Below, piece by piece: positions 1-22,870 of a stretch of 24,119 bases of DNA; position 1 is the stretch's first letter, and the number at the start of each line of letters is the position of its first letter. A program made the position numbers and the translations under genes. Where the stretch lies: positions 1 through 24,119 of IMG/VR virus record IMGVR_UViG_3300009370_002356. One strand, written 5' to 3'. This DNA comes from a virus. The notes beneath the pieces are model-generated. The model saw only the letters and a list, made by a program, of their open reading frames with translations. It did not search any database and was not told the DNA's origin.

Positions 1-198
1 GTTACTCTCAAACCAAGCGCTATGACGATATGGCAGACGATGCGTTTGAGTAAGCCTTCAAATTGGGTTACTCTCAAACCAAGCGCTATGACGATATGGC
101 AGACGATGCGTTTGAGTAAGCCTTCAAATTGGGTTACTCTCAAACCGCAAAGAGTATTCATGGTTTGAGTAAGCCTTCAAATTGGGTTACTCTCAAAC
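1..198 (-). CRISPR. CRISPR array 1 (leader-proximal part; runs off window start)
   Basis: Three full identical 36-bp repeats lie at 44-79, 110-145 and 163-198, plus the last 13 bp of a fourth at 1-13. The repeat has inverted ends (GTTTGAG...CTCAAAC). Spacers are 14-43 (30 bp), 80-109 (30 bp, identical to the first) and 146-162 (17 bp), so repeat plus 30-bp spacer is present as a perfect 66-bp tandem duplication. The repeat next to the ncRNA (163-198) would be first transcribed if the array is read on the minus strand, continuing from the Cas12-like gene and its ncRNA. The array continues beyond base 1. No protospacer was found by eye inside the window. Confidence 0.9.
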
Positions 199-311
199 GG
201 TAACCTTATTTGAAAGTTTATTATTCGTATTGACCTATGCAAGCACAGGTCGCAACGCTTTTTACTTGCCCGACTCAACTTCGGGACAAGGATTAAACTG
301 TAAAAGAACGA
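199..311 (-). ncRNA. tracrRNA/omega-like guide scaffold RNA, copy 1
   Basis: This lies between the stop of the Cas12-like gene and the first CRISPR repeat. Read on the minus strand it holds a 9-bp hairpin (265-290: CTTG, CCCGA paired with TCGGG, CAAG, one bulge), then an 8-bp hairpin with a CUUG tetraloop (232-251). It ends in an anti-repeat (200-214): GTAACC pairs with GGTTAC at 185-190 and ATTTGAA with TTCAAAT at 176-182 of the adjoining repeat, closing a 9-nt loop. RNA and first repeat are therefore one contiguous fold, like an engineered Cas12f single guide. 199-294 is 94/96 identical to copy 2. I see no separate promoter, so it is probably processed from the nuclease mRNA. The 5' boundary is approximate. 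Confidence 0.8.
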
Positions 312-1718
312 TTAACCAAACGCCGCTTTTTTGATATTTTGGGCGGCGTTTTGGTCACGAGAATGGTGCGCTCCACATTCGGGGCAATCCCATTCGCGAA
401 TTTCTAAATTATTTGACAATTCTGTGTTCACAAAACCACAACAAGAGCATTCTTGCGTGGTATAGGCAGGATCAACCGCAACGGCAACAACCCCCCTTAA
501 CTGAGATTTGTAATCTATTTGAGATTTAATCTTGTGGATTCCTCCAGCTAAGGCTTTTCTGTTTATGGCTTGTTTCTGTTTATTGTAAAGTTTGGGGTCA
601 TCTTGGGTCTTTTTAACTATTTGTGAAGGTTTGTAGTCTTCATATGCAATCCCGTCAAATTCATTCGTCACTTTGCTTGTAAAGTTATGTATTTGGTCAT
701 TATGGATACGAGTTTGGTGACGATGGAGCTTATTTAGGGCTGCCTTTGTCTTTTTCCAGTTGTTGGAACCTTGGGTTTGAAGGCAAAGCTTCTGTTGGAG
801 TTTAGTTATTTTCTTTTCTAGACGCTCATCCTTCGGAAAATTATAAGTATTATTTTGATCGTCAACAATATGGTCTTTAATGCCAAAGTCAAGCCCAGTG
901 GTATTCTTTGGTTTTTTGGGGGCAGTAGGGATAGATTTGGAATCGAGAGTAATCGTAAGACAAAGGTAAAATTCGTCCCCATCCCTAGCAATCTTGGCGG
1001 TTTTAGGCTCACCCATCAAGGGGCGATGGATCACCACCCTTATCTTTTCCTTGACGCCTGCAAAGTGATGGAGGGTACTGCGTTCGGGATTTGCTTCATT
1101 AATTTCTAGCTTATATTCCCCTTCATAGACTACGCCATCCTTGACAGTATTCGAGGTCGAGATAGAGTCGCCATCGCAAATATGAGTAGGGTGAACTGGA
1201 AGACGAGCGCGCTCGGACTTTTCCCATCCAAGCCCACGCTTGGTAGTCTTGGGGGCATAGTAATTGACCTTCTTCCCCTTAGTATACCACGACGATTGAA
1301 GTTCAGGATAAATATGATTAAGTGAACGCGCAGAAATTTTATTAAGGAGGTCATACGCCCAGCATTTGCCATCTTCATTCGTGTAGCGATTATTTGGCAA
1401 AGATTTATTAATAATTCGAACGCCGCCCTCCTTAAGATTTTTTACACGATAATATTTAAACTCTGGGAGGTTATCAAGCCCTACCCTGTGAGTTCTCCAT
1501 TGTGAAATTGAGGAGTTCATCTTGGGGAAATTAGGGCCACCTTTGGCGCTTTGAAATTCTGGATAGTCTTCTATATGGGCCGCAATCCTGATCATCTCAT
1601 TTTTGACCAACTGAAAAGCCTTATGCCCTTCGCACATCTGACGATACCATTCAGTGTCCAGAATATCTTGCTTGCGACTCAATGGAAGTATCCTGAATTT
1701 CTGAGTAATAGTTTTCAT
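312..1718 (-). CDS. Miniature Cas12-like RuvC nuclease (Cas12f/TnpB-related)
   Basis: RNA-guided DNA nuclease candidate of 468 residues, in the size range of TnpB and the smallest Cas12f proteins. Visible motifs, numbered from the ATG at 1718: RuvC-I GLDFG with D277; RuvC-II 'IAYEDYK' with E360; a zinc ribbon CSCC (424-427) and CPEC (445-448); RuvC-III 'RDQNAAQNI' with D455. All three catalytic acids are intact. The N-terminal ~270 residues are divergent and should hold the recognition lobe. An in-frame TTG nine bases upstream is possible, but the ATG fits the promoter (-10 ends 10 nt upstream, implying a leaderless mRNA). The gene runs straight into an ncRNA and a CRISPR array, as in type V-F/V-U loci. 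No cas1, cas2 or TnpA is visible. The exact subtype cannot be settled by eye; a TnpB ancestor newly associated with an array is the main alternative. Confidence 0.88.
   Translation of the reverse strand: MKTITQKFRILPLSRKQDILDTEWYRQMCEGHKAFQLVKNEMIRIAAHIEDYPEFQSAKGGPNFPKMNSSISQWRTHRVGLDNLPEFKYYRVKNLKEGGVRIINKSLPNNRYTNEDGKCWAYDLLNKISARSLNHIYPELQSSWYTKGKKVNYYAPKTTKRGLGWEKSERARLPVHPTHICDGDSISTSNTVKDGVVYEGEYKLEINEANPERSTLHHFAGVKEKIRVVIHRPLMGEPKTAKIARDGDEFYLCLTITLDSKSIPTAPKKPKNTTGLDFGIKDHIVDDQNNTYNFPKDERLEKKITKLQQKLCLQTQGSNNWKKTKAALNKLHRHQTRIHNDQIHNFTSKVTNEFDGIAYEDYKPSQIVKKTQDDPKLYNKQKQAINRKALAGGIHKIKSQIDYKSQLRGVVAVAVDPAYTTQECSCCGFVNTELSNNLEIREWDCPECGAHHSRDQNAAQNIKKAAFG
316..354 (-). other. Inverted repeat inside the 3' end of the Cas12-like gene
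   Basis: CCAAA-CGCCGC (316-326) pairs with GCGGCG-TTTTGG (343-354), leaving one unpaired base and a ~16-nt loop. It encodes the last residues after the RuvC-III motif and sits at the stop codon. No T-tract follows on the minus strand, so it is not an intrinsic terminator. It may be a structural or processing element of the downstream guide RNA, or a coincidence of alanine and lysine codons. Confidence 0.45.
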
Positions 1719-1728
1719 GATGGACAAC

Positions 1729-2102: not shown

Positions 2103-2387
2103 GTTTAAGTAAACTTATAAATCGCCTGTCTCTCACCAGTTTGGATAAGCCTTCAAATTATGTTGCATCACAACCAACTGAGGTGTTTGAGTAAGCCTTC
2201 AAATTCGGTTGTTCTCATTCCCCTCACACTAACCGTTTGAGTAAGCCTTCAAATTTGGTTACTCTCAAACTTCCGGAGGCTCCCTCTCATGCTCTTCTTG
2301 GTTTGAGCAAGCCTTCAAATTGGGTTACTCTCAAACGAATTAACAAGAAACGTTTGAGCAAGCCTTCAAATTGGGTTACTCTCAAAC
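2103..2387 (-). CRISPR. CRISPR array 2 (same repeat, eroding at its distal end)
   Basis: Repeats of 36 bp lie at 2352-2387, 2301-2336, 2235-2270, 2185-2220 and 2139-2174, with a remnant at 2103-2138 (23/36 to the array 1 repeat). The two nearest the ncRNA match array 1 except for T to C at position 8. 2235-2270 has one change, 2185-2220 several, and 2139-2174 matches at 26/36. Spacers from the ncRNA outward are 15, 30, 14, 10 and 0 bp (2337-2351, 2271-2300, 2221-2234, 2175-2184). Erosion away from the ncRNA is normal for the old end of an array and sets the leader on the ncRNA side, meaning minus-strand transcription. Confidence 0.88.
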
Positions 2388-2505
2388 GGCAACCTTATTT
2401 GAAAGTTTATTATTCGTATTGACCTATGCAAGCACAGATCGCAACGCTTTTTACTTGCCCGACTCAACTTCGGGACAAGGATTTAAAATGAGAAAGAACA
2501 AATAC
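2388..2505 (-). ncRNA. tracrRNA/omega-like guide scaffold RNA, copy 2
   Basis: 2388-2483 matches copy 1 at 94 of 96 positions. Both changes keep pairing on the minus-strand RNA: one turns a C-G pair of the CUUG-loop hairpin into U-G, the other turns an A-U pair of the anti-repeat stem into G-U. Read from the plus strand both would be mismatches. The RNA ends against the repeat at 2352-2387, again giving a single-guide-like fold. A dedicated promoter lies just upstream (2512-2539), predicting a start near 2505. The gene in front is an HNH nuclease, not Cas12, so this RNA may supply guides in trans to the nuclease at 312-1718. Confidence 0.8.
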
Positions 2506-3330: not shown

Positions 3331-3516
3331 TCATCGCTGTTGCTCAAGGAATTCAAGTATCATTTTAATGGTGGCTTCGTCCTTGGTATGAATAGCCTCC
3401 CCGGAAATCAGCATGATTTTCCATAAGTCATAGCTTCTGCGCTCCTTGATGTACACAATGTTGGCGGGATTAATATAGTAGTACTCGCCCACTTTATCTT
3501 TAACTGTAAAAATCAT
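3331..3516 (-). CDS. Small conserved-looking protein, FlbD-like in shape
   Basis: 61 residues, beta-rich N-terminal half ('GEYYYINPANIVYIKE') and a helical C-terminus. The layout recalls small FlbD-type or LytTR-like proteins ('xxFYLNPxxIxxIE...'), but the match is too weak to name. The ATG overlaps the stop of the ECF sigma gene by 4 bp (ATGA), so it is translationally coupled to it. About 160 bp follow before the HNH gene with no gene that I can support. Function unknown; an accessory of the sigma factor is possible from position alone. Confidence 0.65.
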   Translation of the reverse strand: MIFTVKDKVGEYYYINPANIVYIKERRSYDLWKIMLISGEAIHTKDEATIKMILEFLEQQR

Positions 3517-4097
3517 TTTTCTTGTCTCTCTTTAATAAGCTTTTTTATTTTTTTTATTATCCTTGATTTGGCAACGGTAACATTTGTAACCTTGAATCCT
3601 GTTTTTTCTGCAATTTCATGACAATCAAAACCATCTACTAATAAATTAAAAATTATTTTCTCCTTATTTCCTAGATAATTTTCCAGTTGACGCAAGAATT
3701 CAATCCTTTCTTCTTTAATTAAGTCTGCGAACGGCGCATCGGCAAGCCAATCATAGTTAATGGGAATCGAGCCGCACCCAATAGATAATTTATAAGGATC
3801 ACTGTGGTCAATAGTTTTTGAGTTATCAAGGTGCTGAGAGAGGGTATCTTTGTATTCCGGGACATAATTTATTTTATTTCTTTGGCGCCGCTTTAGGTAT
3901 GCCTTTATTTGAAACCGAGCTATTCCGAAAATCCATGACACAAAACTCTTGGAGCTATCGTAGTCCCGCTCTTTATTAATGACGACAAGATTTGTTTCCT
4001 GTAGAACGTCATGAGCGTCAGAATGGTCAAATATTCTCGATGATATAAATTTCTTGAGTTTTGGTTGGGCGTCAGAAAGCTGGGATTGATAGCCCAT
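3513..4097 (-). CDS. ECF-type RNA polymerase sigma factor
   Basis: 194 residues. Region 2 spans about 25-73: 'DAHDVLQETNLVV' core-binding helix, then SFVSWIFGIARFQIKAYLKRRQR. Region 4 spans about 138-190 with an HTH ('CHEIAEKTGFKVTNVTVAKSRI'). The region 2 wording is close to the ECF family expanded in Planctomycetes and Verrucomicrobia (general pattern DVLQETNL...SFxxWxxGIAR), which is the best host clue in the window. It overlaps its neighbours on both sides (1 bp upstream, 4 bp downstream). It presumably redirects host RNA polymerase to phage promoters. No anti-sigma gene is recognised next to it. It may be host-derived. Confidence 0.85.
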   Translation of the reverse strand: MGYQSQLSDAQPKLKKFISSRIFDHSDAHDVLQETNLVVINKERDYDSSKSFVSWIFGIARFQIKAYLKRRQRNKINYVPEYKDTLSQHLDNSKTIDHSDPYKLSIGCGSIPINYDWLADAPFADLIKEERIEFLRQLENYLGNKEKIIFNLLVDGFDCHEIAEKTGFKVTNVTVAKSRIIKKIKKLIKERQEK

Positions 4098-4678
4098 TAA
4101 AATGGAACGTCATCAGTTGGGAGGATAGTAGGGGGTTTTGTTTTTTTGACTTTAACGGCTTTTTTCTTGAGCGCTTTCTTGGGCGCCTTCTTGGCCGTTT
4201 TCTTTTTCTTTGGGGGTTGATGTTGGCTGTATTGGAGAAGAATTAGATCATTAGTCCCGTAGGCATCATCGATTGCAAGCTGTAGCGTCTCAAGCGCATA
4301 GCGCGAATGAGTCATGCTTCCATAGAGTTGCCCATTGTCTAATTTACTAAAAATATTCATTAGGAAGTCTTTGGCGTCCACATGATTTGTGATATTTGCG
4401 AGATCCAGAGATTCTTTCCAGAAGCGGTAACTGTCTCTTTGGCGATAACGCTTTTTTATTTCTTCCTCAAGTTTCTTGGTGGATTTCTCTTCAGGTATAT
4501 GGAAGTCAAGCTCAGTCTGAATAAGCTCAATGGTCTTTGCTGGAATAAGATGGCCTTTATCTTTAACTGGCTGAGCTTGCAGATAAACTAAATTAAGCAA
4601 ATTCTGATACCTGCGGAGCAACTTATCCTGTGGAATAGATCCGTTTTCTATACGCGTTCCACTCATCGTCATGCTCAT
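4097..4678 (-). CDS. Lysine-rich protein with SSB-like acidic C-terminal tail
   Basis: 193 residues, no family recognised. Residues 1-150 look mostly helical. About 153-183 is a Lys/Ala/Pro-rich tract like a nucleic-acid-binding tail. The protein ends exactly in DDVPF (189-193), closely matching the DDIPF tip by which bacterial SSB recruits partners. I see no OB-fold pattern, so it is not an ordinary SSB. By inference it may bind DNA or RNA through the lysines and recruit or compete for host SSB partners. The stop overlaps the start of the ECF sigma gene. Confidence 0.7.
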   Translation of the reverse strand: MSMTMSGTRIENGSIPQDKLLRRYQNLLNLVYLQAQPVKDKGHLIPAKTIELIQTELDFHIPEEKSTKKLEEEIKKRYRQRDSYRFWKESLDLANITNHVDAKDFLMNIFSKLDNGQLYGSMTHSRYALETLQLAIDDAYGTNDLILLQYSQHQPPKKKKTAKKAPKKALKKKAVKVKKTKPPTILPTDDVPF

Positions 4679-10124: not shown

Positions 10125-10138
10125 ATCTATATATACAC

Positions 10139-11308
10139 CTATTTTATAAGTCCCCAATAAAATGAAGGATCCTGAGTTCCCTCCGACTTTCCTTCTCGTT
10201 GAAGCTTTTGGTATGTAACCTTCGAGTCGCAAAGCCTTCTCGGTATTATTCTCTTGCAGGATTCCCCTTCCGAGTATTTAAGTATTACCGTAAGCATTCT
10301 GCCGTAGTGATGAGGGAAGGCGCTTCCAGCATGGGACACCCTCTCCAACATAAGATCCTTGAGATCGGCGCGAAGCTTTTTGATAGCAGAAAGCTTGACG
10401 GTTGAGAATTCGTCGTCGTAGCCCTCAGCCTTAATCTCTATGCGATTAGCCGTGCAGAGGAAAAGGATTTCTCGGGCAAGCTCTAAATCTCGATGACACG
10501 CCAAGTCATATATGCAAGCCAAATACCCCTTGGGGAGAGGCCACTCCGAAGAATGTCGGGGATCGGCTAGTGAGCAAAACTCTCGAGCGACCGATGCGTA
10601 GGTAAGGTCTTCGTCGCCATCCGCATAAGAAGTCTCCGGGAAGGAGCAATTAAACATTTTGCAAACGTCTTTGTAAGTAGCCTTATTTGGCTTGCATCCA
10701 TTGCCATTGACTGTTTTTGTCATATGGGTCTGAAGAAGCTTGAGCGCTTGGCGCCCAATTTTATCTTTAGGCCCAATAAGTCCATTTATTTGGGCAATGT
10801 CAGTAAGTGTACGCGCCTTACCTACGTCGGTAATATCTTGGGATTCGGGAGGAAGGGAATGAACGACCAACACTTTTAACACCTGATCCTTCCAGCGACC
10901 ATTGGGGTAGTTCTTCTTGGCCCAACGAAGAAATGCGGTAAGTCGATGTTGGCCGTTCTGAATAGTACCACTTCCTTTTGTGAAGGAAATAGCATCCGGC
11001 GACAATACGTATTGATCTTTCTCGAAAACAGTCACAAGGTGGTCTACTCTCGAAGTGCGGATGTCTCGGTTCTTGGAATTGAATTCCTTTAGAATATGCT
11101 CAATTTCAAGCCCACAGAGCTCTTCTACGCCGCTTTGCGGCTCTTTAAAGCTAGTCTTGAATCGATGAGTGGGAATTGGGTTTCCTTCTTCATCCTTTTT
11201 ATTCAAGTATAATTGAAGTTTTTTACCTGTACTTTGAGGAGCCTTGGCAAACCTTTGCATGTAGGTATTTGACTTTGAACGTTTATGGGCTTTCTTTTTA
11301 GTCTTCAT
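10139..11308 (-). CDS. ParB/Srx-like domain protein
   Basis: 389 residues from the ATG at 11308. The open frame reaches 11362, but the promoter at 11341-11369 lies inside that extension, so the inner ATG is right. A ParB/sulfiredoxin-like core is visible around residues 60-160, with the NGQHRLTAFLRW motif (118-129) characteristic of phage ParB-like proteins. Before it is a Lys/Arg-rich N-terminus, after it a helical C-terminal half with HTH-like segments ('KATYKDVCKMFN'). Phage relatives are DNA-binding or nuclease/CTPase-fold proteins. With no ParA nearby, a role in partition is unlikely; regulation or DNA processing is my inference. Confidence 0.75.
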   Translation of the reverse strand: MKTKKKAHKRSKSNTYMQRFAKAPQSTGKKLQLYLNKKDEEGNPIPTHRFKTSFKEPQSGVEELCGLEIEHILKEFNSKNRDIRTSRVDHLVTVFEKDQYVLSPDAISFTKGSGTIQNGQHRLTAFLRWAKKNYPNGRWKDQVLKVLVVHSLPPESQDITDVGKARTLTDIAQINGLIGPKDKIGRQALKLLQTHMTKTVNGNGCKPNKATYKDVCKMFNCSFPETSYADGDEDLTYASVAREFCSLADPRHSSEWPLPKGYLACIYDLACHRDLELAREILFLCTANRIEIKAEGYDDEFSTVKLSAIKKLRADLKDLMLERVSHAGSAFPHHYGRMLTVILKYSEGESCKRIIPRRLCDSKVTYQKLQREGKSEGTQDPSFYWGLIK

Positions 11309-11340
11309 AGTATTTGTTTTGTGTCTTGAATATGGAGCAT

Positions 11341-11369
11341 AGTATACGGGAATTAAATCCATAAGTCAA
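11341..11369 (-). promoter_or_regulatory. Promoter of the ParB-like gene
   Basis: TTGACT (11364-11369), 17-bp spacer, TATACT (11341-11346) on the minus strand, 32 nt before the ATG at 11308. Its position decides the start of the ParB-like gene. Confidence 0.7.
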
Positions 11370-11407
11370 GCTTTTTACTAAAAAAACTTTAAAAAAGAAA
11401 AAAAGAC

Positions 11408-12271
11408 TTAAAGAGAAGGGTATTTATACTTGGAAAGAGAGCATTTTAAAGCTGCTTTTACCGTTCTAATCTTTATATACTGTTCTATATTGGACGTATT
11501 AAGAACACAATTAGATCGTGGGGCAATTACCCCTGAAAAAAAGGATTCAAGGGAATCAAAAAAAGAAAATTCACGATAAGTCGGACTGTACTCGTTTATT
11601 AACTCCACCACCTCCCTTGTGGTAATGCTGCCCTTATTGGTAATATTATAAATTCCTTCCGGCGCTCTTTGCTCTATTAGGTCGATTGAGTATTTGGCGA
11701 AATCACCTCGATGGCTCAAGGAGTTTTTGGCATCAAGCAATGTATCGTAGCTTAATAGCTTAGTTAAGTAATTCCGAGGAGATGTATATTCATCGAATGG
11801 GATCCGCAACCTAAAAATATAGTAGTTTTCAGTGTTTTGGGCGACAACTTTTTCGGCAAGAGCTTTTGACCCACTATAGAAGCTGCCATTTTCGAAGTCA
11901 AAATTTGGAGGATCGTATTCATGAAAATCTCTTTCATACCCATTATAGATGCAGCCTGAAGAGATATGGACATATTTCCAGTCATAATAAGCGCTGCACA
12001 GTTGCGACAACATCATGGGCAACAAAATATTCCCTTCAATGCAATCTGCTTTCGCAGACTCACAAGCATCAACGTTCGGCTTCCCGATGTAGCCCGCACA
12101 ATTAATAATGTATAAGGGAGCCCTTAGATTATCGAGGCTACGCTCAAGATGCAAGCGATTAGTGTAATCTACGTCGCTTCGGCTCCAGGCAAGATAAGGT
12201 AATGAGCGCGACTTTAATTCTCTAATCAGGGCTTCGGCAATATAGCCGCTTTTACCCAATATTACATACAT
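11408..12271 (-). CDS. RmlD-like NAD(P)-dependent sugar-nucleotide reductase/epimerase
   Basis: Extended short-chain dehydrogenase of 287 residues. It has a Rossmann glycine motif GKSGYIA (6-12), NCAGYIG (57-63), Ser at SSG (104-106), and the catalytic YSGSK (Y132, K136). Overall shape and length fit dTDP-4-dehydrorhamnose reductase (RmlD) and related viral UDP/dTDP-sugar enzymes. It likely makes or modifies a nucleotide sugar for glycan or cell-envelope decoration; no other sugar gene lies in the window, so the substrate is open. No Shine-Dalgarno is seen before the ATG at 12271. Confidence 0.85.
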   Translation of the reverse strand: MYVILGKSGYIAEALIRELKSRSLPYLAWSRSDVDYTNRLHLERSLDNLRAPLYIINCAGYIGKPNVDACESAKADCIEGNILLPMMLSQLCSAYYDWKYVHISSGCIYNGYERDFHEYDPPNFDFENGSFYSGSKALAEKVVAQNTENYYIFRLRIPFDEYTSPRNYLTKLLSYDTLLDAKNSLSHRGDFAKYSIDLIEQRAPEGIYNITNKGSITTREVVELINEYSPTYREFSFFDSLESFFSGVIAPRSNCVLNTSNIEQYIKIRTVKAALKCSLSKYKYPSL

Positions 12272-12280
12272 AATTTAATT

Positions 12281-12517
12281 TTAGTAAACTGGAGAATCCG
12301 GGCTGGTATTTTTATAAAAGTCGTTGATTAATTGAACCTCCAAGAGGCTTATATATCCCCGCTGGGCCGTTATCGCCTTCTGCTGAGAACGTATAATATC
12401 GTCTTGCTTTGAGGCTAATCTATATAATTCTTCGGCGTATTGATACTGATTATAGAAACAATAAGTAACAATAACTATTAAAAAAGATAAAAAATAAATC
12501 AAACTACGATCTGCCAC
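12281..12517 (-). CDS. Small membrane protein with coiled coil, 78 aa
   Basis: GTG start. One membrane helix (about 5-22, 'LIYFLSFLIVIVTYCFY') is followed by a Gln/Lys-rich helical region likely to form a coiled coil, and a polar tail. The size and shape resemble phage i-spanin or small tail/lysis accessories, but no specific family is recognised. It lies 9 bp before the RmlD-like gene. Confidence 0.6.
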   Translation of the reverse strand: MADRSLIYFLSFLIVIVTYCFYNQYQYAEELYRLASKQDDIIRSQQKAITAQRGYISLLEVQLINDFYKNTSPDSPVY

Positions 12518-12531
12518 ATAAAAGATTACAC

Positions 12532-12684
12532 TTACTCTCGATTGTAGCGAGGATCATAAGTTCCAATCCCGCAAAACATTCCAACTATTAATGAAAATAA
12601 GGAACCTGCAACAAAAAGCTGTAAAGCAAAAAATACAGAAAGGCACACATTAAAGACGCACATTGTAAGAATTAAGCGCCCCAT
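12532..12684 (-). CDS. Small two-helix membrane protein, 50 aa
   Basis: The ATG at 12684 gives a protein that is almost entirely two hydrophobic helices ('LILTMCVFNVCLSVFFAL' and 'FVAGSLFSLIVGMFC'), ending in TYDPRYNRE. A longer frame up to 12924 overlaps the sigma gene and looks like its shadow, so I use the inner start 49 bp after the sigma stop. Holin-like shape, unproven. Confidence 0.5.
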   Translation of the reverse strand: MGRLILTMCVFNVCLSVFFALQLFVAGSLFSLIVGMFCGIGTYDPRYNRE

Positions 12685-12733
12685 AGCATTTAAAGATGAC
12701 CACGGCCTCACACAGAAAGGTACACCTGAGAGC

Positions 12734-13390
12734 TTATTTATGTACAATATGGTCAGTGTTTCCGTCTCGCGACGAATTAAAGAAATCAGTAACCATCTCA
12801 AGGTGTTGGGGGAGCTTAAAGGTATTCTCGTCAATAACTTCATCTGTGCTCGACTTGAAACGTTTTTTAATTTTATTCCTGATATCTTCTGCGATTTGGC
12901 TAATCCTCTGGTGAGTGAGACCAAATATGTTGCCGATTTCCTCGATCTTTATTCCTCGCCACATAAGACTGAATACATTTTGTTCATGTGGCGTCAACAC
13001 TGATCGGTACTTATAATAGAGGTGACTAACGGACTCTTTTGAAAATTCTTCGTCAAGATGTTCATCATTTTCTCCAACTTGCGCAGAAACAACCTCAAAT
13101 TTTTCACTATCAAAGTCTATTTTTCTGTCTTTTCTTTGCTTTTTAGAGAGATACCAAACCACTTGGTTATGTGTGAAACTAGCAACCCACTTTTTAAAAT
13201 GAGACGTCTTTACTTCTCCGTCGGAAAGGCGAAAGCGATCTCGGTGCTTCCATACATTTGTGCATACCTCTTGAAAAATTTCATCACGGTCAGCTTCGGG
13301 CGCAGAGCACTTATTGGCAATAATCACACGAATATAGCCTTCGTGTTGAGTTAGCTGGTTAAGTAATTTTTCCTCCAAGTCGGGACTCAT
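12734..13390 (-). CDS. Sigma-70/ECF-like factor (module 1)
   Basis: 218 residues. Region 2 spans about 18-75 ('DRDEIFQEVCTNVWKHRDRF', then 'FKKWVASFTHNQVVWYLSKKQRK'). Region 4 spans about 128-180 with the HTH 'IKIEEIGNIFGLTHQRISQIAEDI'. A ~40-residue C-terminal tail is extra. It starts on ATGA with the stop of the HTH protein at 13387-14472, so the two are co-translated. It probably programmes RNA polymerase for a class of phage genes. It is distinct from the ECF factor at 3513-4097 and from module 2. Confidence 0.8.
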   Translation of the reverse strand: MSPDLEEKLLNQLTQHEGYIRVIIANKCSAPEADRDEIFQEVCTNVWKHRDRFRLSDGEVKTSHFKKWVASFTHNQVVWYLSKKQRKDRKIDFDSEKFEVVSAQVGENDEHLDEEFSKESVSHLYYKYRSVLTPHEQNVFSLMWRGIKIEEIGNIFGLTHQRISQIAEDIRNKIKKRFKSSTDEVIDENTFKLPQHLEMVTDFFNSSRDGNTDHIVHK

Positions 13391-14472
13391 TTTTTCGTAG
13401 GCCTAAGGTGTGGGGGCGTAGGGTTTTGTGGTGGTGGGTATTCTTTAGCCCAATCGACATCCGTAATGTCACGCATCGCGCGCCAGAGGCAGTTGCGAGA
13501 GATTTTTAACTCTTTGGCTGCTCTAGATCGAATATTGTTGTTATTGGATAAGGCCTCAATGATTTTAGGCTTTAAGGATTTAAGCTTTTTGCTTCTTTGG
13601 CCGGCGCAGGTCTGAGATCTTTTTTCAATGGTTTCTTTTGAGAGTTTGGTGCCCAAATTCCAATGCACGCGATTTGCTAGAGTTTTTTTCATGGTAGCCC
13701 TTGCTTTGTCTATGGCCTCACGAGAGCGATGTTTTGGCCTGCCGCCAATGGGGTGCTCTTTATTCCAGTCAAAATCAGGATGCTTCTTCCACATGAGTAT
13801 CCATAAGTCTTTTTTATTCATGCCAAGGTAGCGAGCTGCGGCGGCTCTATTCCCTTTGGTTTTAATTAAGGCATTAGAAATTTCAATTCGCTGAGCTAGG
13901 CGCTCTTCTTCTGGAATTCTCTCCCAATCCACCCCAGGTCTACCCCCGGGCTTCACACGATAAAGGTGGCGCTCTTCTGGAGGTGGACGATCCGCATCGG
14001 TAACTGGATTTAGTCTTGACCAGTTCTCGTCTCCTTTTTTAAAGCCAGTCTTTTTGAGGCGTGCAAGTTCTGCGGCATCAATACGGCGATCAAAGTAACT
14101 GGTTTGGCCTGGCCTTCTGGGCTTTTCAATTAAATGAAGATGGTCGGCTACATTGGGAAAAGATATATTCCGAAAAGCCTCCCATGCCTCAATACTTAAA
14201 GATTGATTCGTGTTTCCGGGGGGGATGCGGAATTTGCTATGTATTTTATAGGTCTTGAGAGATTTTACCCTATTTTTGGGATCTTCTCTTTTTATCTTGT
14301 CGATAAGGAGTTCTTTGGCCTTGTCGCTAGAAGTGGCTCGGACGACTGTCTTAAAATCCTTTTCAGAACCATTAGCATAAATCCATGTGAAATAGGCAAA
14401 CCAATAGACATCGAAGTCGTATTTCTCTTTATTGAATTTTTTTTGGGGGTGAACCCAGTCTTTATGTGGCAT
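13387..14472 (-). CDS. Fis-like HTH DNA-binding protein, two HTH copies (module 1)
   Basis: 361 residues. The N-terminal ~150 residues align with the protein at 15634-16332: 'YW' start, Lys-rich strand pattern, 'AEL(A)xLKKxGF..G.ENWS' at 132-152. Two Fis/HTH_8-type motifs follow: GNRAAAARYLGMNKKDLW (207-224) and NNIRSRAAKELKISRNCLW (312-330), each followed by '(D)W.KE(H/Y)P'. It looks like a sequence-specific regulator, possibly an adapter or activator for the sigma-like factor coupled to it. It overlaps the preceding sigma-like gene by 11 bp. No known family name fits with confidence. Confidence 0.7.
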   Translation of the reverse strand: MPHKDWVHPQKKFNKEKYDFDVYWFAYFTWIYANGSEKDFKTVVRATSSDKAKELLIDKIKREDPKNRVKSLKTYKIHSKFRIPPGNTNQSLSIEAWEAFRNISFPNVADHLHLIEKPRRPGQTSYFDRRIDAAELARLKKTGFKKGDENWSRLNPVTDADRPPPEERHLYRVKPGGRPGVDWERIPEEERLAQRIEISNALIKTKGNRAAAARYLGMNKKDLWILMWKKHPDFDWNKEHPIGGRPKHRSREAIDKARATMKKTLANRVHWNLGTKLSKETIEKRSQTCAGQRSKKLKSLKPKIIEALSNNNNIRSRAAKELKISRNCLWRAMRDITDVDWAKEYPPPQNPTPPHLRPTKK

Positions 14473-15637
14473 AATTAGAAGTATTTGGTAATAAGTTGAG
14501 AGACTTAAACCACCTTAACTTCCCAGAAACAACAGATGTCGGGATGCGAAGCTCGGCAGCAGTCTCTTTGCACGAAAAGCCCTCTTTTAAAAACTGTAGG
14601 ATATTCTTATCTCGAGAGGTAAGTTTTTTTGGCTTAACCCCGGTATGGGGAATTTTATCGATCATTCCATTTGATAAGAGGAATTGGCATTTACGCTTTA
14701 CAAGGTAGGCGTGGCTTATGTCGAGTAATTTGGTTATTTGGTGGATGGTGTGGCCAGCGTTAACAAGCTCAATGAGCTTATCTATGTCTTCTCGGGGCCA
14801 ACCAAAAATAATCGACCTCTTAAGGTAACTAAAAACTCCCATATTCTGAGATAATCTATTGATTTGGCCCGCAGTGTATTCCCCCTCCTTAAAATGCTTG
14901 GAAATTTCTTCAGCAGTATACTTTCCTTTATTCCTCAAGATGTAATCGAGGAGCGCAGACCTATCGGCCTCGGTTATAGGATTATGCGGAGGGGTCTTTT
15001 CAAAAAATGAACGGGCACACGATAATCCGTTCGATGGAAGGGGGGAGTCTTTATAGTCAAATTTAATATTTGATCGAAGCTTTTTTGCTAATTTAATCAA
15101 TGAGATTGAGACTCCTTGGTGGGTCACTCCCAGATAGTCGGCAATTTCGTACTGATTTTTTCCCACCTCTAAAAGAGATATTATATGCAGCTCCATGGGA
15201 GTTAGGAGTTGCGAGTACTCTCGCACATACTTTAGGAAGTATTTGGCTTGATCGGATTTAAATATCTTCTTGAGCTCTTGGTCTTCGGCGCCCTCGAATT
15301 CAATTATGTAGTCAAAACTGCTTTTAAGCCCTTCGTCGGTGGAATATGTTTCGTTAAGCCTATATTTTTGCTCTTTTTTAATCTTGTAAGTCGCGGCAGA
15401 CCATTTTGTGATATTTACTGCATAACGATAGGCAATTTTAGAAAAATCGTCGTAAGAAAGATCTCCGTCCGTATTTTGGGTAATATCGTGACGCTTTTTA
15501 TAAAGAGACAAATTGACATCCGCCACAATCTCATCTAGGGTTAAAGGGTGAGAAGATTTACGGCACGCTGCCACAATAGACCTAAGATCTTGTTGGTGAT
15601 CTCTGAGGTAGCCGGCAAAAAGAGCATCTACGTTCAT
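14462..15637 (-). CDS. Sigma-like factor with extra HTH domains (module 2)
   Basis: 391 residues, far longer than an ECF factor. A divergent region 2 (about 5-95) is followed by a clear region 4 (145-190, 'LTPMELHIISLLEVGKNQYE', 'IADYLGVTHQGVSISLIKL'). Beyond residue 200 come three more HTH-like segments (about 238-262, 285-310, 348-375; e.g. 'TIHQITKLLDISHAYLV', 'SCKETAAELRIPTSVVSGKL'). It is coupled by ATGA to the HTH protein upstream and overlaps the next module by 11 bp. The extra HTHs suggest recognition of extended or upstream promoter elements, which is inference. Confidence 0.7.
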   Translation of the reverse strand: MNVDALFAGYLRDHQQDLRSIVAACRKSSHPLTLDEIVADVNLSLYKKRHDITQNTDGDLSYDDFSKIAYRYAVNITKWSAATYKIKKEQKYRLNETYSTDEGLKSSFDYIIEFEGAEDQELKKIFKSDQAKYFLKYVREYSQLLTPMELHIISLLEVGKNQYEIADYLGVTHQGVSISLIKLAKKLRSNIKFDYKDSPLPSNGLSCARSFFEKTPPHNPITEADRSALLDYILRNKGKYTAEEISKHFKEGEYTAGQINRLSQNMGVFSYLKRSIIFGWPREDIDKLIELVNAGHTIHQITKLLDISHAYLVKRKCQFLLSNGMIDKIPHTGVKPKKLTSRDKNILQFLKEGFSCKETAAELRIPTSVVSGKLRWFKSLNLLPNTSNYAT

Positions 15638-16332
15638 CTTTTATTGGACTTTCTGGGGGGGTAATCCTTTTCCCAGTTCACCTCGGCAAATTTAGAAAAA
15701 AGATGATATATTTTGTTGCGATTATAACCCAAGTAGCGAGCCGCCTCGCTCCTGCTGTTGTCGTGCTTGACTAAAGCCCTTATGAGCCTATCTTTTTCAA
15801 GAGCCCTCTCTTCTGAATCCCAGTCAACCCAAGTCCCCCTGTATATCTTATGGGCCCTTTTGTCGAGGGGGAGAGAGGTGCCTTTTCTGAATTTATGAGA
15901 CCAATTCTCTTTCCCCGGCTGAAAGCCTTTTTTCTTTAGGTCAGCCAATTGGGACGGGGAAAGACTTCTGGCCCTATAATTTACCCAAGGTACTTTAAAG
16001 AGGGTGTTGTCCGCATTCGGGAACGCAGCGCCACGAATATCATCCCAATCCTCTACAGTTAATTTCCTATTCCCGTTACGCATCATATGGTAATTTTTAT
16101 GTATCCAATAAGAATGCCCGCTAAACTTGACTTTTGAAGAGGGCATATCTTCTTTTATTTTGGAGGTAATGATCCTTTTTGCCCAATAAAGGGACTTTGC
16201 CTTTATGATGCAGCTATAAAACGACTTGGCGCCAGTATTATCTTCTATGCCAAAATTAATACTCCAGTATTGAGCAACTGGAAATCTGTAGCGCCGAGCG
16301 TCAGCTTGAGAGAACTTCTTTTTGGGAGGCAT
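15634..16332 (-). CDS. Fis-like HTH DNA-binding protein, one HTH copy (module 2)
   Basis: 232 residues, shorter paralogue of the protein at 13387-14472. It shares the N-terminal domain, the 'LADLKKKGFQPGKENWS' segment (129-145) and one Fis/HTH_8-type motif (NSRSEAARYLGYNRNKIY, 192-209) followed by 'VNWEKDYPP'. It lacks the second HTH. It is the first gene of the four-gene operon 16332-12734, behind a TTGACT promoter with a ~22-nt leader, and is coupled by ATGA to its sigma-like partner. Confidence 0.7.
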   Translation of the reverse strand: MPPKKKFSQADARRYRFPVAQYWSINFGIEDNTGAKSFYSCIIKAKSLYWAKRIITSKIKEDMPSSKVKFSGHSYWIHKNYHMMRNGNRKLTVEDWDDIRGAAFPNADNTLFKVPWVNYRARSLSPSQLADLKKKGFQPGKENWSHKFRKGTSLPLDKRAHKIYRGTWVDWDSEERALEKDRLIRALVKHDNSRSEAARYLGYNRNKIYHLFSKFAEVNWEKDYPPRKSNKR

Positions 16333-16354: not shown

Positions 16355-16383
16355 ATAATACCATAGGGGAGAAGGCAAGTCAA
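16355..16383 (-). promoter_or_regulatory. Promoter of the double HTH-sigma operon
   Basis: TTGACT (16378-16383), 17-bp spacer, TATTAT (16355-16360) on the minus strand, 22 nt before the ATG at 16332. The -35 overlaps the stop of the preceding small gene. Confidence 0.7.
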
Positions 16384-20615: not shown

Positions 20616-21013
20616 TGGTGGAGGTGGCGGGAGTTGAACCCGCGTCCTGAGACCTTCAAGCATGTACGTCTACAAGTTTAGTTAATTTTTTTTATAGTTA
20701 TGATATTAACATCCAACTACTTGTTTCAATTATTTGCAGTTTGTGACACAAGTAAACTTTTGTCTGTTTTTGCAGATAGATGACCCCTTATCCTTTTTAT
20801 CTGCGTCAAAAGGTAAGAGGTTAGCAGGTTAAGCTGCTAAGGCGAGCTTGCGGCCCTTGAAGCCGAAACGCTTCGCAGCGAGACGGTTCTTGAAACCTAA
20901 AGCTCTAACACGGTTTTTGTTGCCATGTACAACTTTGCGCCTTTTTCCGAAGCCGGGCGCCTCTTCGACTTGCAGTGCAAGAATCCAACCTCAGTCGAAT
21001 CCAGTACACCCCC
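20616..21013 (-). ncRNA. ssrA: tmRNA with an unusually long basic tag
   Basis: 398 nt. The 5' end GGGGGTG pairs with CACCTCC before an encoded ACCA. Near the 5' end is GGATTCGAC; near the 3' end a T arm GCGGG-TTCAACT-CCCGC. Pseudoknot PK1 is visible (CGAAG/CTTCG and GCGCC/GGCGC). 12 nt after it UACAU precedes a GGC resume codon (as UAGUC precedes GCA in E. coli). The reading frame (20924-20829) encodes 31 residues: GNKNRVRALGFK, then NRLAAKRFGFKGRK, then LALAA and UAA. The LALAA end is the standard protease signal, but the tag has ten Lys/Arg and no acidic residue, against ~10 residues in E. coli. It rescues stalled ribosomes; phage-borne tmRNAs are known but uncommon. Confidence 0.93.
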
Positions 21014-21733: not shown

Positions 21734-22849
21734 TTATTCTTTAATAAATTTTGTGTCGCCCTCCTGTGATGCTAGATTGGTACGCCTTGCAGCTTCGTAG
21801 AGGGCATTATAATTGTTAGTTACGTGCGTATAACGCTGACGGGTGATCTTCTTTAGGGCTTCTTCTGAAATACGAGAAGGACCGTCATCGGTAAATAGTT
21901 TGAGGATAGCTATATCCTTGTTGGTCACATCAACTTCCCATTTGATCTGATACCCAAAGTCTGGAATGGGGCCGGAAAGATCTGCCGCATGAGCGCGAGA
22001 TCCGGGACTTTTGGATTCACTCCAAGTAAAAACTGGGACGACGCCTCCCCATGTTTCATGAAAAGCTCCAACATTAATTTGTTGCTCAACAACGGCCCCG
22101 TCAATATCAGAGGGGTTTAAGGCGTCAAATAAATTGTTATAAGACAAAGGGAAACCAAAATCATGCTCCTCAAAGCAATATACATGAAGGTATTTAAATA
22201 AACGAAACGCATTCCATGAGCCATGGTCGGCATTTTTTAATACGAGGCGCTTTTGAGTGTTCTTTCCAAGCTTTTTGAAGTTTTCAAAAAATCTATCCGC
22301 AAAATCACAATAAGCTTCATGATCTTCGGTACTAGGTTGGGAATTTAGATGTAAGGTGATCGGTGAGGAAATGTTCGGTTGCCCTCCAAGCGTATCAAGA
22401 AACCAAGAATAAAAATCTAGTTCCTTTATAGACTTCTCAACTACGGACTCATCGTCATCTATCAGCTTACAAAACTTGTCTGGCTGAATGGACAGGGAAA
22501 CGCCTTTGGTAATTGAGGTGCGACCAATTTCCTGAATGGACTCTATGAGTTCATCTTTTTTAGGTAAATCATTAATTCCAATATCAAAACTCGGATCAGC
22601 TAAAATGCCAAAAATAGAGGTGTTGAGTCGGTAATGATCTATATTGCTGTCTCGGCAGAAATCAATAATCTTTACGGTAAGATCGAGATTGTGAAGAATA
22701 TCTTTTTGCAGCCTGTTGAGCGCCGCCTTATCCCCTTCCTCAGAGGAAAGTTTTCCGTAGTCTTTGCGAGTTAGGCCAACGAAAGAATTAGAGGGGTCTT
22801 CTTCCTTTAAGACTTTTGAGACACAAATTAATCCATATTTGGTATTCAT
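21734..22849 (-). CDS. UvdE-like TIM-barrel protein with altered active-site motifs
   Basis: 371 residues from the ATG at 22849 (a GTG at 22864 is also in frame). It follows the UV-damage endonuclease UvdE/UvsE order: 'YGLICVSKVL' start, NRLQKDILHNL, HYRLNTS, LHLN, a 'LVL.N.D.GSWN' block (202-213), 'FPLSYNNLFDALNPS' (233-247), 'PVFTWSE' (272-278), AHAAD (286-290) and a KWEVD segment. Compared with what I recall of phage and bacterial UvdE, LENDD reads LKNAD, YDNLHD reads YNNLFD and the His of HYSE is Thr, so several metal-ligand positions seem replaced. It may be a divergent or non-cleaving relative. Active UvdE nicks DNA 5' of UV lesions. Confidence 0.75.
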   Translation of the reverse strand: MNTKYGLICVSKVLKEEDPSNSFVGLTRKDYGKLSSEEGDKAALNRLQKDILHNLDLTVKIIDFCRDSNIDHYRLNTSIFGILADPSFDIGINDLPKKDELIESIQEIGRTSITKGVSLSIQPDKFCKLIDDDESVVEKSIKELDFYSWFLDTLGGQPNISSPITLHLNSQPSTEDHEAYCDFADRFFENFKKLGKNTQKRLVLKNADHGSWNAFRLFKYLHVYCFEEHDFGFPLSYNNLFDALNPSDIDGAVVEQQINVGAFHETWGGVVPVFTWSESKSPGSRAHAADLSGPIPDFGYQIKWEVDVTNKDIAILKLFTDDGPSRISEEALKKITRQRYTHVTNNYNALYEAARRTNLASQEGDTKFIKE

Positions 22850-22870
22850 TAAAGATGAGTACACATAAAA

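Follow-up and report, generated by a model that had tools for sequence, protein, structure and literature searches.

The 24,119-base IMG/VR virus record IMGVR_UViG_3300009370_002356, analyzed whole and called the window here, carries an operon of four overlapping genes on its minus strand, made of two modules in each of which a gene for a Fis-type helix-turn-helix (HTH) protein (the partner) is followed by a gene for a sigma-like factor (Table 1). Module A (partner A and sigma A) is transcribed before module B (partner B and sigma B). The arrangement given in an initial annotation of the sequence stood when open reading frames (ORFs), coordinates and overlaps were checked: along the minus strand partner A and sigma A overlap by 4 nucleotides (nt), sigma A and partner B by 11 nt, and partner B and sigma B by 4 nt, and within each module the partner gene is coupled to the sigma gene by an ATGA overlap. 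The two partners are paralogous, as that annotation had proposed (31% over 240 amino acids [aa], E=2e-26); that sigma A and sigma B are also paralogues (27% over 190 aa, E=1e-11) had gone unnoticed. A sigma70-type promoter precedes the operon, and the sequence around it, AATTGGTCAAAAA..CTTGACTT.CCTTC, is common to the window and the module operon of its nearest relative, a 103.8-kb contig (L013), in which the operon opens with the partner gene of the other module. No near match to the window was found among 50,697 phage records.

Sigma factors and their partners

In both sigma A and sigma B, regions 2 and 4 lie on one polypeptide. Sigma B matches Pfam Sigma70_r4 with 24.4 bits (cut-off, 24.1) and reaches 23.7 bits with Sigma70_r2, 0.3 under the cut-off of 24; it also matches the PHROG RNA polymerase sigma factor (2.8e-18), as do most members of the sigma family (17 and 16 of 25). 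Region-2 columns of the family align with region 2 of Escherichia coli RpoE, FecI and RpoD (hhalign, P=4.7e-5, probability 68%), and the family region 4 aligns with E. coli region 4 (P=1.1e-6, probability 91%), with crossed controls with region 2 giving probabilities under 1%. The AlphaFold model of sigma A has a mean predicted local distance difference test (pLDDT) score of 79.7 and a predicted template modeling (pTM) score of 0.33, so its domain arrangement is uncertain. In VIA-align, residues 1-93 match sigma-E-type region 2 (4lup: Z 9.6, 80 residues, root mean square deviation [rmsd] 3.4; 5uxx: Z 10.0, 83 residues, rmsd 3.6), and residues ~123-194 match region 4 of SigF (8jzt: Z 8.1, 56 residues, rmsd 1.5). 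A PDB fold search with the models of partner B and sigma A gave no match with E<=0.001, and statements about fold therefore rest on the VIA-align rows and on sequence profiles. Regions 2 and 4, whose absence from the structure the initial annotation had named as one finding that would refute it, are both present by profile and predicted fold. By these measures sigma A and sigma B are sigma factors, which presumably bind RNA polymerase core.

The three extra HTH segments attributed to sigma A appear in the model as three-helix units C-terminal to region 4 (residues 223-265, 282-322 and 341-379; block pLDDT mostly ~90+), of which the second and third are similar to the one C-terminal unit present in a relative, L003. 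The count of three sigma-like factors in 24 kb likewise holds, the third being an extracytoplasmic function (ECF)-type factor that matches Sigma70_r2 with 41.6 bits. Sigma B and the ECF-type factor have the ECF group IV plan of small size and regions 2 and 4 only, and sigma A has the same core plus its extra C-terminal HTHs. The conserved gene overlapping the start of the ECF-type factor encodes a protein with no N-domain of the partner type (see below), no Pfam match and no known family, and is possibly a partner or anti-sigma of that factor. The nearest relative has four sigma-like genes on its 104-kb contig, the fourth in the structural block (Sigma70_r2, 27.9 bits), with relatives at the corresponding place in records G002 and G015.

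All partners checked are strongly basic, and each begins with a family-specific amino-terminal domain (N-domain). Pfam HTH_8, the main match of the partner family (15 of 26 members), is found once in partner A (27.8 bits) and in two stretches of partner B (50.5 bits), in agreement with the second Fis-type HTH ascribed to the latter. The AlphaFold model of partner B has a mean pLDDT of 85.1, and its HTH 1 aligns with NtrC1/Fis (VIA-align, Z 7.4). Partner B is 65% identical to its L013 counterpart; partner A is 58% identical to its L013 orthologue, which carries both HTHs, as do most full-length partners in the family. The window copy of partner A has thus lost its second HTH, and the idea that DNA-binding parts had been traded between partners is not needed. 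We rejected it also because short sigmas and partners with one or no HTH are scattered over several branches of the family, a distribution that repeated gains and losses explain. No AAA+ sigma54-interaction domain was matched in the partner family in Pfam. The description of the partners as paired activators is plausible, and an anti-sigma or an assembly factor is also conceivable.

Two further observations concern the partners. N-domain proteins of a third kind, 165-188 aa long with an FKKGFTPWNK-like motif and without an HTH, are encoded ~3-5 kb before the modules in five relatives (Table 1); the one checked is strongly basic, and two that were scanned belong to no known family. In L009, at ~8800, a frameshift at a run of A splits the partner gene, with the second HTH carrying on in another frame, and is either a sequencing error or real.

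Table 1. Positions of the modules and of other features in the window and related records
Feature	Record	Position	Strand	Description
Partner A	Window	15634-16332	-	232 aa, pI 10.1; N-domain and one Fis-type HTH (15706-15804)
Sigma A	Window	14462-15637	-	391 aa; region 2, 15359-15637; region 4, 15056-15271; extra HTH units, 14834-14971, 14672-14794, 14501-14617
Partner B	Window	13387-14472	-	361 aa, pI 10.1; N-domain, 14134-14445; HTH 1, 13762-13911; HTH 2, 13471-13572
Sigma B	Window	12734-13390	-	218 aa; regions 2 and 4 only
Operon promoter	Window	16355-16383	-	Sigma70-type, TTGACT-N17-TATTAT, 23 nt 5' of first start codon
Box GTGTAATC	Window	12524-12531	-	Exactly 14 nt 5' of GTG start of small gene 12281-12517, directly after sigma B
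Second box GTGTATAT	Window	10131-10138	-	14 nt 5' of ATG (10124) of 46-codon frame
ECF-type sigma-like factor	Window	3513-4097	-	Regions 2 and 4; orthologue 46.8% identical in nearest relative
Conserved 193-aa gene	Window	4097-4678	-	One-base overlap with start of ECF-type factor; orthologue 54.9% identical, same place in nearest relative
Third-kind N-domain protein	L007	1870-2367
Third-kind N-domain protein	L017	2728-3225
Third-kind N-domain protein	L020	2304-2822
Third-kind N-domain protein	L021	3413-3979
Third-kind N-domain protein	L022	2934-3437
Fourth sigma-like gene (L013 contig)	L023	18279-19007	-	Structural block
Transposase-type gene (L013 contig)	L026	9428-10771	-	Between the two modules
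CRISPR-like arrays	Window	1-201, 2139-2390		36-nt repeat
Cas12f/TnpB-like gene	Window	312-1727	-	471 aa; flanked by the arrays
tmRNA gene	Window	20616-21013	-	Full length
UvsE-like gene	Window	21734-22864	-	UV damage endonuclease

Distribution and history of the module

Single-protein scans of viral contigs gave one relative, whereas alignment queries gave 16 records of related uncultured phages (36-180 kb; 31-43% G+C), all of which carry the module in single or double form, as laid out by profile searches of the full records. Because both the family and the gene order recur in 16 independent records, chance can be excluded. The partner gene is always directly upstream of the sigma gene, with start-to-stop spacings of -50 to +26 nt in 24 pairs, and every HTH-type or mini-type partner in the 16 records has a sigma neighbor, except one at a contig end. 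Outside this group, the module is absent from the 50,697 phage records, in which the partners tested and the long sigmas had no match beyond chance and sigma B had weak matches only; no relatives were found in prokaryote genomes.

One module is present in L003, L005, L006, L008, L014, L016, L018 and L019. Two in tandem are present in L007, L009, L015, L017, L020, L021 and L022, where a pair with a mini partner comes first and a full partner with a long sigma follows; an ECF-type factor lies between the two modules in L007, L017 and L022, and the L007 contig ends after its second partner. The mini partners (131-145 aa) consist of the N-domain only and their sigmas are short, except in L007, and most sigmas paired with full-length partners are long. 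L013 has both modules of the window in reversed order, separated by a transposase-type gene, which may be linked to the reversal. The smallest pair in the family is an N-domain alone with sigma regions 2 and 4 alone. This combination is thus the conserved core around which HTHs have been gained or lost, and its retention of the N-domain suggests that this is the element meeting the sigma or the polymerase.

The main splits are the same in the partner and sigma trees. The B modules of the window and L013 form a clade with L008, L016 and L018 in both the partner N-domain tree (support, 97/96) and the sigma-core tree (96/92); the mini partners form a clade (97/98), as do their sigmas (100/98). 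Partner and sigma distances are correlated (Mantel r=0.65), a value reached in 0 of 5000 permutations. Orthology calls disagree between the window/L013 pair and the mini/full pair, as expected if these arose by separate duplications. A recent tandem duplication was rejected, since modules A and B fall in different well-supported clans common to other phages; on their sequences, they are best described as anciently diverged copies of one module.

A GTGTA box, an ACTTT array and other elements

Reading of the structural block of the L013 contig gave a lead, GTGTATWW just 5' of gene starts, which was tested in the L013 record and seven other large records, with gene starts taken from the longest ORF beginning with ATG, GTG or TTG. 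Among pentamers 13-17 nt 5' of starts, the GTGTA(A/T)W class ranks first, with 66 sites versus 1.3 expected across the eight records, and is significant in seven of them (P from 1e-28 to 1e-4). In nine further loci, including the window, the box is present in 11 of 58 cases versus 0.24 expected (P=1e-15), a replication that is not fully independent because two of these loci, L006 and the window, have relatives among the records in which the box was discovered. T4, P-SSM2 and HTVC008M, of which 50 kb each were scanned, had no box at this distance from starts. Genes with the box have a Shine-Dalgarno-like sequence in 3% of cases versus 15% of others (P=0.004), and no clear -35 element was found 5' of the box. 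Several boxes were seen, on unscored reading, to lie directly behind terminator-like hairpins. If the box is taken as a -10 element, transcripts would start on or beside the start codon and would be leaderless. Phage mRNAs without a leader have been mentioned before (PMC5312081); literature searches found no description of the GTGTA box or of the sigma/partner pair.

The window box directly after sigma B is, judged by its sequence and place, a candidate phage-specific promoter of a leaderless mRNA, and in G002, G008 and G007 a GTGTAA box stands in the corresponding place, 5' of a short gene that directly follows a sigma gene. GTGTAT and GTGTAA differ in the genes they precede (structural versus other; pooled P=0.0016, mainly from one genome), and the thought that this split matches two sigma factors is only a lead. 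In the L013 contig, TTGAC-type promoter-like sites number 45 in the 77 kb outside the structural block versus 4 in the 26.6 kb inside it, a ~fourfold lower density per base. The staged transcription program at which the initial annotation hinted receives indirect support from the combination of a sigma70-type operon promoter and, in relatives, a second, phage-specific promoter-like box.

One structural-block gene, located at 11296-13395 in the L013 contig and encoding a protein of 672-699 aa, adjoins the terminase gene and has its box (GTGTATAAT) behind two to five ACTTT direct repeats, and in two genomes it is the only gene with three or more such repeats. Searched in 17 records, the pattern of array plus box matches in all four records holding this gene and nowhere else, with one match for a reversed-pattern control; one of the four was not used in defining the pattern, though it is a close relative of another. 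The array is a natural candidate site for a two-HTH protein, which might be the partner.

Other elements of the window lie apart from the operon. The clustered regularly interspaced short palindromic repeat (CRISPR)-like arrays have eight copies of a repeat (GTTTGAGTAAGCCTTCAAATTGGGTTACTCTCAAAC), some of them degenerate, short spacers (30 and 17 nt, and ~10, 14, 30 and 15 nt) and a duplicated block of 135 nt that is 97% identical at the two arrays; a search of IMG/VR with one 30-nt spacer gave no exact match. The protein encoded between them matches PADLOC Cas12f (4e-38) and NCBIfam guided_TnpB (157 bits; cut-off, 100), and the locus looks like a phage-borne mini type V system or a TnpB-to-CRISPR intermediate. 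A transfer-messenger RNA (tmRNA) gene (Rfam, 153 bits) is predicted to encode a tag peptide of unusual length, 31 residues with LALAA at its end, and a gene for an ultraviolet (UV) damage endonuclease resembles UvsE (NCBIfam, 8e-18, below cut-off; PHROG endonuclease).

A proposed mechanism, its rivals and related systems

We give about an even chance to the proposal that each pair is a transcription-specificity unit that retargets host RNA polymerase to phage promoters. The operon would be switched on early by host sigma70. The sigma would then bind host RNA polymerase, using region 2 for the -10 element and the core clamp and region 4 for the flap, and the partner, made on the spot through translational coupling, would join it as activator or co-sigma via the N-domain, placing its Fis-type HTHs on DNA 5' of the promoter. 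Such a holoenzyme would read phage promoters with a GTGTA-type -10 box and without a -35 element, from which largely leaderless mRNAs would start; the ACTTT array at the main structural promoter would be the binding site of the partner, and with two diverged modules the phage could operate two sets of promoters or two stages. The host enzyme is the likely target because no gene for the beta subunit of a multisubunit RNA polymerase was found in nine records. We infer polymerase binding, contact between partner and sigma, and reading of the GTGTA box by the module. The most specific form of the proposal is put forward tentatively, with rather more chance of being wrong than right: that the sigma works only with its cognate partner and its new N-domain, that the two have been duplicated as a unit into at least two promoter programs, and that they drive -35-less GTGTA promoters with leaderless transcripts, the partner sitting on tandem ACTTT sites at the main structural promoter.

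Several points weigh against this proposal. The box is weak in G006 (P=0.13), although that record carries both modules. The partner N-domain matches known structures only weakly (eL20, Z 6.5), and its role is therefore guessed from context. When partners are swapped within genomes, the real pairing ranks only third of 256, a result we attribute to the long branches of the window and L013. A single-subunit (T7-type) phage RNA polymerase is a possible alternative enzyme, and an ECF-type sigma, present in seven of the eight large records, could equally read the box.

This ECF-type factor is the main rival reader of the box. If it or a host sigma did the reading, the module sigmas would act on host RNA polymerase at other promoters, for example those of middle genes, a reading we consider doubtful but one to be taken seriously. 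Its wide presence and the weak box of G006 favor it, and ECF sigma factors often recognize short -10 boxes starting with GT. However, G015 has the box (P=1e-11), yet no ECF-type factor of this kind was found in its 180 kb, and the box is absent at this position from the unrelated phages tested, which also speaks against this rival.

An unlikely alternative makes the partner an anti-sigma or chaperone, whose N-domain would keep hold of the sigma pending its release by DNA or another signal, with the inactive pair tethered by the HTHs. Anti-sigma genes commonly adjoin ECF sigma genes, partner and sigma have duplicated and diverged jointly, and the mini partners lack HTHs altogether, all of which would fit. 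On the other side, two Fis-type HTHs are present in most full-length partners, every one that was checked is strongly basic, and the partner gene precedes its sigma gene, the reverse of the usual order for anti-sigma genes. No known anti-sigma domain was matched among the Pfam families listed for the partner family, although anti-sigma folds diverge greatly. It is very improbable that these are sigma-derived folds serving not transcription but DNA replication, packaging or recombination. This reading is favored by the Pfam scores of sigma A, which are higher for generic HTH families than for Sigma70_r2, and by weak matches of some family members to a terminase small subunit profile; against it, both sigma regions occur in the right order, region 2 matches with Z ~10, and the PHROG sigma factor is matched as widely as noted above.

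Should the proposed retargeting of host RNA polymerase prove true, this group of large uncultured phages relies on sigma/partner pairs that are duplicated as units. The natural series they offer (N-domain only, one HTH or two HTHs; short or long sigma) would then lend itself to asking how temporal classes of promoters are put together in a phage. The GTGTA box and ACTTT array are concrete test templates and would make late genes of these phages easier to recognize from sequence. It would also be unusual, as a strategy of expression, for leaderless mRNAs to be tied to a phage promoter that has a -10 element only.

Phages with sigma factors and co-activators of their own are already known, as T4 with gp55 and gp33. 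To our knowledge, a sigma that carries both regions itself, whose coupled partner combines a new N-domain with Fis-type HTHs and which has been duplicated with that partner as a unit, is undescribed. In T4 late transcription (gp55, co-activator gp33 and clamp gp45), a phage sigma-like protein and a small second protein likewise redirect host RNA polymerase to late promoters, as is proposed here from sequence. The T4 late box is -10-like and without a -35 element, which resembles the GTGTA box. The published description makes T4 gp55 and gp33 a split sigma in which gp33, at the flap tip, is a mimic of region 4 (PMC2988020). In the modules, by contrast, region 4 is part of each sigma itself, the partner combines Fis-type HTHs with an N-domain that is unrelated, and the promoter box belongs to the GTGTA type. 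No gp33- or gp55-named families appeared in the PHROG scans. In SigO-RsoA of Bacillus subtilis, too, two genes jointly make one specificity factor, but regions 2/3 and 4 are on separate proteins there (PMC10141391) and on a single protein here, so that these sigmas are not two-subunit factors in that sense. The PHROG sigma families phrog_1740 and phrog_351 have similar sigma cores, with no homologous partner found in the phage records searched. With ECF (group IV) sigmas such as E. coli RpoE, sigma B shares the plan of regions 2 and 4, and the region 2 fold matches; unlike in those systems, a DNA-binding partner takes the place of a known anti-sigma, and sigma A adds three HTH units. The partner in turn shares the HTH_8 DNA-binding unit of Fis/NtrC-type activators, but differs from them in lacking an AAA+ domain and in combining two HTHs per chain with an N-domain specific to its family.

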